Source of the DNA: Acidimicrobiia bacterium
GTDB lineage: Bacteria; Actinomycetota; Acidimicrobiia; Acidimicrobiales; Poriferisodalaceae
NCBI GenBank assembly: GCA_022821985.1
Contig: JAJECP010000021.1
Coordinates: 90,856-154,855 of the forward strand
DNA: 64,000 nt
Direction: 5' to 3'
Part shown: positions 15,145 through 56,152 of the stretch, piece after piece
How the letters are laid out: each line of letters opens with the position of its first letter
Position numbering within the stretch: position 1 is the stretch's first letter
Made by a program: the position numbers and the translations under genes
Notes under the pieces: generated by a model
Told to the model about the DNA's origin: nothing
The model's database searches: none
What the model saw: only the letters and a program-made list of their open reading frames with translations

Positions 15145-15929
15145 ACCCGCCAACGGCCACTGCAACGGCATCGGTGCTCGGGCGAGACCCCGCGCGTGAT
15201 CGCTTGGCTCTCGCGCTCGATGTGCCAGACCGGGCCGCTGCCATGGCGCTCGTGGAGCGTTTCGGGGCTGACTTTGGTGTCATGAAAGTCGGTCTCGAGC
15301 TGTTCCTCGCTGAGGGCCCCGCGGTCGTCCGCGACATCGTGTCGGCGGGCAGCCGCGTGTTCTTGGATCTCAAGCTCCACGACATACCGAACACCGTGGA
15401 GCACGCTGCTCGCTGTGCGGGCGAGTTAGGGGTCTGGCTGCTCACCCTGCACACCCAGGGTGGGCCGGAGATGCTGGCCGCGGGTGCCCGTGGCTTGAGC
15501 GAGGGTGCGGCCACCGCACACCGCGGCGCTGGTGATGCCGCCTCGAGCACTGCCGACGCTGACCCGGGCCCCGACGCGCCGATCGCGCTCGGCGTCACCG
15601 TGCTCACCTCCGACGCAGACGCCCCGTCGGAGGTGCTGATGGATCGAGCGCAGCTGGCCGAGCGAACCGGCTGTGGCGGCGTCGTGTGCGCCGCACCTGA
15701 TCTTCCCGTCGTGATCGACACGGTGCCGGGGATGCTTCGGGTGGTCCCGGGCATTCGGCCTGCCGGTGCGCCGTCCGCCGATCAACGCCGCGTCGCCACG
15801 CCGGCGTCGGCACTGGCGGCAGGCGCCGACGTGCTCGTCATCGGCCGAGCGGTCACCGCAGCGCCCGATCCGGACGCAGCAGCGGCAGCCATCGTCGCCG
15901 AGGTTGCTGCCGCCCTGGGTTCGCCGTAA
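15141..15929 (+). CDS. pyrF: Orotidine 5'-phosphate decarboxylase
   Basis: 262 aa, last step of UMP synthesis. The catalytic D-x-K-x-x-D cluster is at 76-81 ('LDLKLHDIPNTV', Lys78). 'TPGIRP' is represented by 'VPGIRPAG', and the phosphate-binding end by 'GADVLVIGRAVTAAPDP'. An Ala/Ser-rich insertion at about 120-150 ('GAATAHRGAGDAASS') is unusual and contains a palindrome related to the repeats described elsewhere in this window. The GTG start overlaps the pyrD stop (GTGA), ending the chain of coupled pyr genes. Confidence 0.95.
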   Translation: MNPPTATATASVLGRDPARDRLALALDVPDRAAAMALVERFGADFGVMKVGLELFLAEGPAVVRDIVSAGSRVFLDLKLHDIPNTVEHAARCAGELGVWLLTLHTQGGPEMLAAGARGLSEGAATAHRGAGDAASSTADADPGPDAPIALGVTVLTSDADAPSEVLMDRAQLAERTGCGGVVCAAPDLPVVIDTVPGMLRVVPGIRPAGAPSADQRRVATPASALAAGADVLVIGRAVTAAPDPDAAAAAIVAEVAAALGSP

Positions 15930-15979
15930 GCCTCGCCGCCATCGAGCCCGGTGTCCCTAGGGCATATCTGGCGCATAGC

Positions 15980-15985
15980 TACACT
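15980..15985 (+). promoter_or_regulatory. -10 box for mihF, near-leaderless
   Basis: TACACT ends 8 nt before the mihF ATG, which has no ribosome site. This fits a leaderless or nearly leaderless transcript separating mihF and its followers from the pyr genes. Confidence 0.5.
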
Positions 15986-15993
15986 GCACCTCA

Positions 15994-16329
15994 ATGAGTC
16001 CGCTGCCTGAACTGAGTGACGAGCAGCGTGCCGAGGCGCTGGCCAAGGCCAAGGAGGCCCGCGAGGTCCGCGCAAACGTCAAGCATCGGTTGAAGATGGG
16101 CCTGCTCACCTTCGACGAGTTGCTGGCCGAAGCCGACACTGTCGAGAACGTCGGCAAGCTCAAGGCACTCGCTGCCTTGGAGTCGATGCCCGGTCTCGGC
16201 AAGGTCAAGGCCCGCCGACTGATGGCTGAGATTGGCATCGCCGACAACCGGCGACTGCGAGGTCTCGGCGAGACGCAGCGGCGCCGTTTGAGCGAGCATT
16301 TCGCACAGGATTCCGCCTCAGGCGCGTGA
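15994..16329 (+). CDS. mihF: Integration host factor, actinobacterial type (mIHF)
   Basis: 111 aa nucleoid-associated DNA-binding protein. The conserved mIHF core 'AREVRANVKHRLKMGLLTFDELL' and the H2TH/helix-hairpin-helix 'ESMPGLGKVKARRLMAEIGIADNRRLRGLGETQRRRL' are both clear. It sits directly before gmk and rpoZ, as in most actinobacteria. It has its own TACACT -10 box. The stop overlaps a GTG that opens a 5-codon mini-ORF ending at the gmk start. Confidence 0.95.
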   Translation: MSPLPELSDEQRAEALAKAKEAREVRANVKHRLKMGLLTFDELLAEADTVENVGKLKALAALESMPGLGKVKARRLMAEIGIADNRRLRGLGETQRRRLSEHFAQDSASGA

Positions 16330-16339
16330 AGACAGTCGC

Positions 16340-16933
16340 ATGACCGACCCGGCGCCCAGCGGCGCTGCGAGTCCCGCCGCGCCTTGGGGCGTCACGCTGT
16401 ACGTGGTGTGCGGGCCGGGCGGCGCCGGCAAGGGCACGATCGTGGCCGAATTGGTAGCGCAAGACCCCACGCTGCTGCTGAGCCGATCCTGGACCACCCG
16501 CCCTCGCCGGGTGGGGGAGCCAGCCGAGGCCTACACGTTCGTGACGGCCGAGGAGTTCGATGCACGCATCTCAGCAGGCGGGTTCCTGGAGTGGGCCGAC
16601 TTCTTCGAGTACCGCTACGGCACCCCGATGCCGCCGCCCGATCTCGACCGCGATCTGGTGCTCGAAATCGACGTTCAGGGCGCTGTGTCGGTGCGCAACC
16701 GTGATCCTGCTGCCCTGGTGATCATGGTGCTGCCGCCGAGCCGCGCCGAGCAGGAGCGACGCATGCGCCGCCGGGGCGACCCCGATGCAGACGTGGCACG
16801 CCGGCTCGCCAAGGCCGACGAGGAGCTGCCTGTCGGCTACCGGATGGCTGATCTCATCGTCGTGAACCGAGACATCTCGAGCACGGTGTCGGAGATCGCC
16901 GCATTCGTGGAGCGAACCCGGTCCCGCCGGTAG
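16340..16933 (+). CDS. gmk: Guanylate kinase
   Basis: 197 aa. Phosphorylates GMP to GDP. P-loop 'GPGGAGKGT' starts at residue 25. 'SRSWTTRPRRVGE' binds GMP, with 'FLEWADFFEYRYGTP' and 'LEIDVQGA' following as in all guanylate kinases. The N-terminal 18 residues (PAPSGAASPAA) are an Ala/Ser/Pro extension not found in typical Gmk. The stop codon TAG forms part of the TAGCCT -10 box of rpoZ. The ATG overlaps the stop of a 5-codon mini-ORF that begins in the mihF stop. Confidence 0.95.
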   Translation: MTDPAPSGAASPAAPWGVTLYVVCGPGGAGKGTIVAELVAQDPTLLLSRSWTTRPRRVGEPAEAYTFVTAEEFDARISAGGFLEWADFFEYRYGTPMPPPDLDRDLVLEIDVQGAVSVRNRDPAALVIMVLPPSRAEQERRMRRRGDPDADVARRLAKADEELPVGYRMADLIVVNRDISSTVSEIAAFVERTRSRR

Positions 16934-16936
16934 CCT
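16931..16936 (+). promoter_or_regulatory. -10 box for rpoZ, near-leaderless
   Basis: TAGCCT, whose first three bases are the gmk stop codon, ends 10 nt before the rpoZ ATG. No ribosome site is present between them. Confidence 0.5.
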
Positions 16937-16946
16937 GCGTTTCGCG

Positions 16947-17285
16947 ATGACTGAGTCAACCGACACCATGATCACCCCAGGGCTCGAAGACCTGCTCTCC
17001 AAGGTCGACTCGAAGTTCACGCTGGTGAGCCTCGCTGCCATGCGCTCGCGGCAGATCAACTCGTACTACAACCAGCTCGACGGTGGCATCGGCTCGGTTG
17101 TGCCCCCGCAGGTTGCCTCGGTTGCCCGCAAGCCCTTGTCGATCGCATTCGAGGAGATCGACGCCGACAAGATCACGTTCGAGCGGTTCGACCCCGAGGA
17201 GCGAGCACGGCTGGAGGCCGAAGCGCTTGCCGCGGCGGAGGCTGACGCAGCCATGCTCGAAGTGGTTCCCGACCTCGAGGCCTGA
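16947..17285 (+). CDS. rpoZ: RNA polymerase omega subunit
   Basis: 112 aa. It shows the omega pattern: 'LEDLLSKVDSKFTLVSLAAMRSRQINSYYNQ', in which the RxRQIN helix contacts the beta-prime C-terminus, then 'KPLSIAFEEIDADKITFERF'. The acidic Ala-rich tail is longer than in other phyla but common in actinobacteria. It assists assembly of core RNA polymerase. coaBC starts one base after its stop. Confidence 0.95.
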   Translation: MTESTDTMITPGLEDLLSKVDSKFTLVSLAAMRSRQINSYYNQLDGGIGSVVPPQVASVARKPLSIAFEEIDADKITFERFDPEERARLEAEALAAAEADAAMLEVVPDLEA

Positions 17286-17286
17286 T

Positions 17287-18546
17287 TTGCCTGACGCTGC
17301 GGCGTCTCCGTTCGCCGGGCGCCGCGTGGTGCTCGGCGTCAGCGGTGGCATCGCTGCGTACAAAGCAGTGATCCTGTGCCGACTCATGATGGACGCCGGC
17401 GCGCACGTCGTGCCGGTGATGACCGCAGCCGCACAGCGTTTCGTCGGCAGGGCCACCTTCGACGCCCTCGCCAGCGAGCGCGTGCAGACATCGATCTTCG
17501 GCGAGGACGATCCGATTCCGCACACCACGCTGGGTCAGACGGCCGATGTGGTGGTCGTGGCACCCGCTACGGCACGTGTCATCGGCAGCTACGCCGCGGG
17601 TATCTCCGACGGCTTGCTGACCGCCACGCTGCTCGCCACGCGGGCACCGGTCGTGGTCTGCCCTGCCATGCACACCGAGATGTGGGAGCACCCTGCCGTG
17701 CAGCACAACATCGAGGTGCTCACCGGCCGGGGCGTGCACATGGTGGTGCCTGAGGCCGGCCGTCTCGCCGGCGGCGACATCGGCACCGGCCGTCTTGCCG
17801 AGCCGGCCACGATCTTCGAAGCCGTCAGCGAGGTGCTCGCTGCGCTGCCCGAACGAGACCCCGCCCACGAGCCGACGCCGCCACGCCGCGACTTCGCCGG
17901 CGTCAGCGTTACCGTCAGCGCCGGCGGCACCCGGGAGGCCATCGATCCGGTTCGCTTCATTGGCAATCGGTCATCGGGCAAGCAGGGCTACGCCATTGCC
18001 ACTGCCGCCCGCGATCGTGGCGCCGAGGTGACGCTGGTGACGAGCGCCCCGCTCCCGCCACCCGAAGGCGTGCAAGAGGTTCGAGTCGAGTCGGCTGCCG
18101 AGATGGAGGCCGCCGTGGCGGCACATGCAGGCGCCGACGTGATCATCATGGCGGCGGCAGTGGCCGATTTCCGGCCAGCCGACGTTGCGCCGCAGAAGAT
18201 CAAGAAAAGCAGCCCCGCCGAGAGCACCGGAGCCCCGGTCATCGTGCTCGAGCACACCAAGGACATCCTCGCCGGTCTCGGGGCCGCAAAACCGCCGGGC
18301 CAGGTGCTGGTGGGCTTCGCTGCCGAGACCGCCGATGTGCTTGACAACGCCGCTCAGAAGCTGGCTCGCAAGAACCTCGATGTCATGGTGGCCAACGACG
18401 TCTCGGCAGCCGGCGCTGGCTTCGCGCACGACACCAACATCGTGACCATCCTGCTGGCCGACGGCACCGTGCGCCCGCTGCCGATCTGCTCCAAGCGCGA
18501 AGTCGCCGACGCCGTCCTCGACACCGTCGCCGAGTTGCGCCAGTAG
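17287..18546 (+). CDS. coaBC: Bifunctional phosphopantothenoylcysteine decarboxylase / synthetase
   Basis: 419 aa. Converts 4'-phosphopantothenate to 4'-phosphopantetheine in CoA synthesis. The N-terminal flavin-dependent CoaC domain has '[12 protein letters not shown]', active His79 ('IPHTTLGQ') and '[12 protein letters not shown]'. The C-terminal CoaB domain has '[20 protein letters not shown]', 'AAVADFRP' and 'KIKK'. TTG at 17287, one base after the rpoZ stop, is the only start that leaves the N-terminus intact; the open frame upstream is rpoZ in another phase. The N-terminal 'PDAAAS' is encoded by a small palindrome (17293-17306). Confidence 0.93.
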
Positions 18547-55006: not shown

Positions 55007-55498
55007 ATGGCGGCAGACTTGACGGAACCAGAGCAGATCCCGCTCACCGAACTCGACGCCGCGTTCGCCGCGATCATGAGCGAGATCGTGGACACCGGTG
55101 TGGCGCCTCACTACGCCGAACTTGCCGTCACTCTGGGTATCACACCGATACGCGCCAAGGCACTCGTCAAGCGCGTCATCGACCTCACGCCAGGTTGGCT
55201 GCATCCGGGCACCGACTACATCGCGTCGTTTCCGCCGTTCAATAACCAACCCACTCAATACCGGGTGAGCATTGATGGTGAGCAGCGCTGGTTCGCCCAG
55301 TGCGCTTTCGAAGCGCTGGCGATCCGCTGGCTGGTTCCGGGGCAGACCGTCACGGTGGATGCGCCGTGCCTGCTGGGCGGCGATCCCTTGCGGATCGTGA
55401 TGCGCGACGAAGAGATCCTCTTGATGGACCCGCCTGAGATGGCCGGCTACACCCGCAGCGTGGTCGGTGGCGATGCAGCCACGCGGCCATTCCGCTGA
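55007..55498 (+). CDS. MerB-like (alkylmercury lyase family) protein, first part up to an in-frame TGA
   Basis: 163 aa to TGA. A winged-helix N-terminus ('YAELAVTLGITPIRAKALVKRV') leads into the MerB core: 'TQYRVSIDGEQRWFAQCAFEALAI' with Cys99 and Glu102, then Cys121 in 'VDAPCLLGG'. MerB of plasmid R831b has Cys96, Asp99, Cys117 and Cys159. Here the TGA is codon 164, so it falls at the position of the missing third catalytic cysteine. The frame continues through the TGA without a shift into the expected C-terminal MerB segment ('MNLFRSEEDARNWEEY'). Either selenocysteine is inserted or the gene is broken. The upstream -10 box suggests it is expressed. The true substrate may not be organomercury. 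Confidence 0.7.
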   Translation: MAADLTEPEQIPLTELDAAFAAIMSEIVDTGVAPHYAELAVTLGITPIRAKALVKRVIDLTPGWLHPGTDYIASFPPFNNQPTQYRVSIDGEQRWFAQCAFEALAIRWLVPGQTVTVDAPCLLGGDPLRIVMRDEEILLMDPPEMAGYTRSVVGGDAATRPFR

Positions 55499-55537
55499 GC
55501 GGGCATGAATCTCTTCCGGTCGGAGGAGGACGCCCGC
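55499..55537 (+). promoter_or_regulatory. SECIS-like stem-loop immediately after the in-frame TGA
   Basis: GCGGGC (55499-55504) pairs with GCCCGC (55532-55537). Inside, CTCTTCC (55511-55517) pairs with GGAGGAG (55522-55528), leaving apical loop GGTC (55518-55521). The loop begins 19 nt after the TGA. Bacterial SECIS elements have a hairpin right after UGA with a GGUC-containing apical loop and comparable spacing (17 nt in Escherichia coli fdhF). No selenocysteine genes are in the window, so the assignment is a strong hypothesis. Confidence 0.6.
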
Positions 55538-56152
55538 AACTGGGAGGAATACGACCACAGAATGTCGCACCTGGTGCGGCCCGTGGAATGGTGGGCCGAC
55601 ACGTTCTCCGCTCCGATGTTCCGGGAGCGTGGCCGGAGCGACTTCATCTCATGGCTGACGGGCCCCGAGGCCTCCGGGACCTTCGCCGAGCTGCGCGAGC
55701 GAATGTCGCCGCCGCGCCCCGACGTACGGGCCACGACGGCGGCAGCGAGCGCGCTCAGCAAGGTTGACCTCAGCGTGGTCGACGGGGCGTCGGCGGATGA
55801 CCGGAGTGTCGAGCGCAGCCTGATGACAGTGTGGCCCGCAGCCGTGCAGGTCGAGATTGCCCGCCACTGGCGCAACACCGCTCGGGCGATGATCGTGGCC
55901 ATACCTGCCGAGCCGCTGCCAGATGTTGACCAGCAACTGTGGACCGAGACGCGAAGGTCGGCGGTACGCGATGTTCAGGCAGCCACCGGCTGGTTGGCGC
56001 GGGCCGATGTGCGCGCCGGTGATGTGCGGCTCACTCATCGGCTGGCGCAGATGGGATGGCAGGGCGAGGTAGCCGATCAGCCCGCGTGGACGGCCATGGA
56101 GCAGTCCGCCCGGGCGATCCTCAAGTGCCAGGCGTTGGCTGAGCTGACCTGA
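55505..56152 (+). CDS. Downstream part of MerB-like protein (same frame as 55007-55498), or separate protein
   Basis: 215 aa if started at ATG 55505, which has no Shine-Dalgarno and lies 6 nt after the upstream TGA in the same frame. Its first residues 'MNLFRSEEDARNWEEYDHRM' match the C-terminal end of MerB-like proteins ('FFxSxExAxxW'), so it makes more sense as a continuation than as an independent protein. The remaining 150 residues (two helical, Trp/Ala-rich segments) exceed the MerB length and are not recognised. With the upstream part and one recoded residue the product would be 380 aa. Confidence 0.6.
   Translation: MNLFRSEEDARNWEEYDHRMSHLVRPVEWWADTFSAPMFRERGRSDFISWLTGPEASGTFAELRERMSPPRPDVRATTAAASALSKVDLSVVDGASADDRSVERSLMTVWPAAVQVEIARHWRNTARAMIVAIPAEPLPDVDQQLWTETRRSAVRDVQAATGWLARADVRAGDVRLTHRLAQMGWQGEVADQPAWTAMEQSARAILKCQALAELT

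Follow-up and report, generated by a model that had tools for sequence, protein, structure and literature searches.

Passages of PMC4525700 and PMC8261052 describe an organomercurial lyase, MerB, whose metal ligands are Cys96 and Cys159 and in which Asp99 takes part in proton transfer. PMC8261052 also describes MerB relatives in which signature residues are altered, many of them from genomes that lack canonical MerB; the relevant passages concern a screen for Cys at position 159 with variants at 99 (Ser) or 117, and a class with Glu at 99 and selenocysteine (Sec) at 159 does not figure in them. Sections of PMC13188914, a 2026 review, present SaoL as a MerB-like selenoprotein with one predicted Sec, in the motif CU. 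A 2020 table excerpted from PMC7435645 lists "Organic mercuric lyase MerB2" among predicted selenoproteins, and a corresponding list within PMC9312934 includes an "Alkylmercury lyase MerB-like protein" whose accession the review assigns to SaoL. Here, we describe a gene at positions 55007 to 56152 of a 64,000-nucleotide stretch of Acidimicrobiia DNA (the window) in which an in-frame UGA stands where MerB has Cys159. With UGA read as Sec, this one gene would encode a MerB-like protein of 381 residues whose Cys99/Sec164 pair is likely to serve in cleaving carbon-metal bonds, a reading to which we give a probability of roughly 85%. Sec insertion at codon 164, considered separately, appears close to certain from comparison of the sequences. 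The features on which the argument depends are as follows.

55007..56152, forward strand: whole gene, 381 codons with UGA as Sec, plus the final stop TGA at 56150-56152 (supported by translation, kept length, and selection).
55037..55636, forward strand: MerB-like domain, residues about 10-210.
55301..55303, forward strand: Cys99 codon, aligned with MerB Cys96; TGA in loci L024, L029, and L046-L048.
55310..55312, forward strand: Glu102 codon, aligned with MerB Asp99; Glu is invariant across the 16 rows of alignment A2.
55367..55369, forward strand: Cys121 codon, aligned with MerB Cys117.
55496..55498, forward strand: in-frame UGA, codon 164, predicted Sec, aligned with MerB Cys159.
55505..55507, forward strand: ATG (Met167), the database start of a 215-residue second-half protein.

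Translation with TGA as U gave 381 residues, codon 164 being the only TGA inside the frame, in agreement with the preliminary description of this DNA, which had called the frame continuous but for the TGA. That description had also matched Cys99, Glu102, Cys121, and codon 164 to MerB Cys96, Asp99, Cys117, and Cys159 (numbered as in PMC8261052), and a phmmer alignment to solved MerB paired the same residues. Against the Pfam MerB family PF03243 (cut-off 27 bits), the first half of the protein scored 45.7 bits, the read-through protein scored 63.7 bits, and the second half alone gave no match. The family match therefore spans the stop, bearing out the earlier claim that it resumes in frame, and the read-through score places the protein in the MerB superfamily. 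The predicted structure likewise has a MerB fold, and 10 more distant loci (L050-L059) show the Cys-x-x-Asp spacing of MerB. By homology, the codon-164 position would be that of a catalytic Cys.

To compare this codon across relatives, we searched 397 sampled genomes of the order (E of 1e-10 or better; 21 positive) and 396 genomes of the phylum (E of 1e-8; 14 positive, including the window's own genome). The site codon was TGA in 20 of the 21 order genomes, counting a broken copy in genome G249, and TGC in the distant genome G339. The other 13 phylum genomes yielded 14 loci, each with TGA at the site and some with only 25 to 30% identity to the nearest query; a Chloroflexota record (L043) also has TGA. 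At the DNA level, 34 of 35 relatives had TGA, the distant L031 had Cys (TGC), and none had TAA or TAG; the metagenome protein P0045 also has Cys at the site. An in-frame UGA at a conserved position, together with homologs carrying Cys there, is the pattern by which selenoproteins are recognized, and the selenocysteine interpretation put forward in the preliminary description gains support from it.

The aligned set comprised 35 loci, the window gene included, drawn from 34 genomes or database records, 33 of them belonging to the phylum of the window and one to Chloroflexota; codon 164 was TGA in every locus. Before this count we set aside the broken G249 copy (L030, L032, and L033; TGA at the site); the Cys form L031, which is told apart; repeats of genome-search rows (L034-L037, L039, L040, and L042) and other repeats (L082-L084); the window itself found again (L045 and L078); and L060, a second fragment of L049. 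L038 was also dropped, its 48 bases being left out of alignments A1 and A3 but used in the silent-variation and stop/selection analyses. L016, with an extra TAG, and L049, with a masked stretch upstream, were retained. The extra in-frame TAG of L016 lies at codon 15 and is also present in L039; translation of these two may start further on. The G249 relative is decaying, its fragments lying in different frames with one more TGA.

In nine loci of the genus (L011-L018 and L041), the stretch that begins at codon 164 and ends at the stop is in identical frame and has the same length, 218 codons. Over the 36 pairs of these copies, the median ratio of nonsynonymous to synonymous substitution rates (dN/dS) was 0.18 before the UGA and 0.14 after it; purifying selection after the TGA is the same as before it. 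These results bear on what the preliminary description had named the main alternative, a recent nonsense mutation, here taken together with a pseudogene or sequencing error. The broken G249 copy and the extra TAG of L016 and L039 lend such decay some plausibility within the family. However, the same TGA occurs in the window gene and 34 relatives from separate assemblies, which rules out sequencing error, and because the TGA is conserved and selection acts past the stop, a recent nonsense mutation is effectively excluded.

A true stop at codon 164, with translation restarting at the ATG six bases downstream to make a separate second half that then joins the first, would account for the storage of both halves as database proteins. 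Since every one of the 16 rows of alignment A2 has Met167, sequence by itself leaves some room for this restart, yet we consider it very unlikely. The next in-frame stop, which is the true gene end, is TGA in 25 of the 35 loci and TAG in 10; because TAG ends 10 of these same genes, a plain stop at codon 164 need not be TGA, and TAA or TAG would serve a restart equally well. In addition, L055, with its UGA intact, and L031 have Ile as residue 167; Met is present in the Cys form P0045, where restart would be needless. Restart also leaves unexplained the Sec machinery and the hairpin described below.

The window's genome (G000; 3.31 Mb in 41 contigs, 89.9% complete) has near relatives retrieved by name as uncultured Acidimicrobiia, and some close proteins are named Candidatus Poriferisodalis. 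The preliminary description had asked for the Sec machinery as a check, and we found all four components over their cut-offs: a tRNA-Sec with anticodon TCA (UCA in RNA; 66.3 bits versus a gathering score of 47), SelA (385.6 bits versus an NCBIfam cut-off of 267.9), SelB (302.2 versus 242.25), and SelD (360.9 versus 125). The SelD gene lies on a different contig from the SelA/SelB pair. Judged by sequence, members of two well-known selenoprotein families, SelD and formate dehydrogenase, appear to have in-frame UGA codons in the same genome; the top-scoring formate dehydrogenase reached 629.5 bits, under its cut-off of 666.25.

L010:14241-15551 and 15581-17305: adjoining SelA and SelB genes of G000.
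L044:1501-2454, forward strand: SelD of the same genome, with one in-frame UGA (context GAGUACK).
L079:1501-3435, reverse strand: formate dehydrogenase of the same genome, with one in-frame UGA (context NRTUHAPS).

SelA was present in all 21 order genomes holding a relative and in 237 of all 397 sampled; tRNA-Sec, whose presence was checked in those 21 genomes only, was found in every one. The consistent presence of tRNA-Sec argues against decoding of the UGA as another amino acid, such as Trp, by a near-cognate tRNA, an explanation even less probable than restart. Four metagenome proteins (P0041, P0042, P0043, and P0124) do print Trp at the site, but TGA is rendered as Trp by any gene caller using code 4, and three of these proteins have Trp at Cys99 as well. 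Moreover, TGA ends 25 of the 35 genes, and where the residue is encoded by a sense codon at the DNA level (L031), it is Cys.

If the UGA is decoded as Sec, a bacterial selenocysteine insertion sequence (SECIS) would be expected just downstream, and the window carries a candidate.

55511..55528, forward strand: predicted bacterial SECIS upper hairpin, stem 55511-55517 with 55522-55528, loop GGUC at 55518-55521.
55499..55537, forward strand: outer stem, 55499-55504 with 55532-55537, present in the window and kept partly by relatives (76.7% of cells paired).

Starting at the TGA, a 48-base segment has a predicted folding energy of -23.0 kcal/mol (z of -3.07), which 3 of 200 shuffles equalled. According to a passage in PMC13188914, a bacterial SECIS has a loop of 3 to 9 nucleotides with G in the first two loop positions, a stem of 4 to 16 bp, a distance of 16 to 37 nucleotides from the UGA, and an energy of at most -7.5. 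The window hairpin fits this rule, with a four-nucleotide GGUC loop 19 nucleotides past the UGA, 8 bp, and a folding energy of -9.8 kcal/mol when the hairpin is taken by itself. In an alignment of 34 distinct rows, the upper hairpin was paired in 97.5% of cells; three pairs were altered on both sides, which 3 of 500 shuffles also reached, and the covariation score was 0.142 versus 0.064 for shuffled alignments, with no match in 500. In L022 and L025, two synonymous substitutions (CGG to AGG and TCG to TCT) turn the closing C-G pair into A-U. Consistent with constraint on the RNA, residues 169, 170, and 172-175 fell within the 15 columns of lowest silent variation among 93 conserved columns (22 rows), and Arg171 had the lowest silent variation of the 10 Arg columns in the same rows. 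Under a stricter scripted rule, 27 of the 35 loci passed, versus 183 of 3,989 other codon positions in these genes. The hairpin statistics correct only incompletely for relatedness, to which the paired silent changes are least sensitive.

Several observations weigh against Sec insertion or soften its support. Eight of the 35 loci failed the strict SECIS rule, as did the formate dehydrogenase of the window's genome, and L019 has a different loop. Controls in which pairing partners were slid by one to three columns reached covariation scores of up to 0.090, and the number of pair types in the hairpin was equalled by 61 of 500 shuffles. The search queries and profiles were UGA forms, so the sample is biased toward such forms and distant Cys forms may escape it. 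The conserved Met167 discussed above belongs here as well.

The family resembles SaoL (MerB-like organometallic lyase, NF040728) in being MerB-like with one predicted Sec. In contrast, it scored 25 bits against the NF040728 cut-off of 140, and the CU motif is absent, the residue before the UGA being Arg, Thr, Asn, or Ala in every one of the 35 loci; this separation is by profile score and listed motif. Because the SaoL cut-off is failed and the Cys-Sec motif is missing, the window family is classed here as a wider, apparently new variant beside the known MerB-like selenoprotein SaoL. The MerB2 and alkylmercury lyase MerB-like entries, as seen in parts of the lists cited above, are likewise MerB-family selenoproteins and are comparable by name or by one accession only. 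Unlike canonical MerB (NF009710 and NF033555; structures 3f2f and 5c17), the window family has predicted Sec for Cys159 and Glu for Asp99, and its scores lie under the cut-offs. A literature search that did not cover the Haft papers found no paper joining selenocysteine, selenoprotein, and Acidimicrobi-.

A mechanism can be proposed. SelB bound to the GGUC-loop hairpin would deliver Sec-tRNA(Sec) to the UGA. By analogy with MerB chemistry, Cys99 and the selenolate of Sec164 would grip the metal in an organometal, methylmercury for example; Glu102, in the place of Asp99, would hand a proton to the carbon, and the metal would then pass to small thiols or selenols. Sec would here hold and strip metal rather than do its usual redox work. 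A selenolate would offer stronger Hg(II) binding and be ionized at neutral pH. Part of PMC11639659 reports that model selones cleave Hg-C bonds faster than their sulfur analogues, and an enzyme family with one or two Sec residues at the Hg-C cleavage step would make this idea directly testable in biology.

On these comparisons, organomercurial lyase activity is modestly favored as the main function. Counting against it, the canonical set Cys96/Asp99/Cys117/Cys159 is replaced by Cys, Glu, Cys, and UGA; the MerB equivalogs NF009710 and NF033555 gave 31.1 and 28.6 bits versus cut-offs of 193 and 200; no mer gene was found among the scanned neighbors of the window gene; and a search of the 89.9% complete genome detected no MerA over cut-off. 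Glu in place of Asp99 and the last three points, together with the low SaoL score, favor a selenoprotein whose natural substrate is not an organomercurial but another organometal or organometalloid, or one that binds metal without carbon-metal cleavage. We regard this as a genuine possibility of somewhat less than even odds, since the MerB fold and the Cys/acid/Cys-or-Sec set are kept in order and spacing, and genomes with MerB but without MerA are known from passages of PMC8261052.

Incomplete proteins of this family appear to be common in databases. The 215-residue second half is stored as its own protein in many records, and several 163-residue pieces carry the NCBI name organomercurial lyase. 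The last residues are PFR or PYR, directly before the TGA, in 116 of 123 relatives that we examined; in a search with P0045, 118 of 119 new proteins among the matches listed (120 of 681) have Leu as their final residue at the equivalent position, and some are named from Methylomirabilota, Rokuibacteriota, and Terriglobales. In all, 234 of 242 database relatives examined stop just before the site codon, and we infer a following TGA from the protein ends alone. If so, many entries labelled organomercurial lyase or hypothetical protein would be only halves, truncated at the catalytic residue; Sec forms would likewise be overlooked by methylmercury demethylation surveys built on a Cys at 159, as described in passages of PMC8261052.

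In five loci (L024, L029, and L046-L048), TGA occurs at both the Cys99 and codon-164 positions, and these genes may encode MerB-like proteins with two selenocysteines. Three metagenome proteins (P0041, P0042, and P0124; protein records only) have Trp at both sites, as a code-4 gene caller prints TGA. In a tree of 41 rows, some with long branches, with these eight labelled as double forms, the label needed five changes, four of them forced by well-supported branches. Decoding of the first TGA is less sure, since only two of the five loci have a strict hairpin downstream of it. We consider it more likely than not that a very large, overlooked clade of Sec-dependent organometal lyases exists in ordinary soil and marine bacteria, some with Sec at both metal-gripping Cys positions (MerB Cys96 and Cys159), a two-selenium active site from two UGA codons of one gene that was gained or lost more than once.

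The region beyond the MerB-like domain varies among relatives.

55709..56149, forward strand: C-terminal extension, residues 235-381.

In the window gene this extension is all-helical in the predicted structure, and a Pfam scan of it returned zero matches; median dN/dS within it was 0.12 over the same 36 pairs of genus copies. It is missing from relatives whose genes stop 68 to 90 codons past the UGA. Among the double-UGA loci, the frame past the second UGA runs for 361 codons in L046 and L047 and 360 in L048. Frames beginning at ATG in L072:5207-6283 and L071:77-1153 gave weak Pfam matches to an AAA-type ATPase (29.7 and 26.6 bits versus a cut-off of 21.2), and in L046 and L047 the MerB-like domain would be fused to a likely ATP-binding domain.
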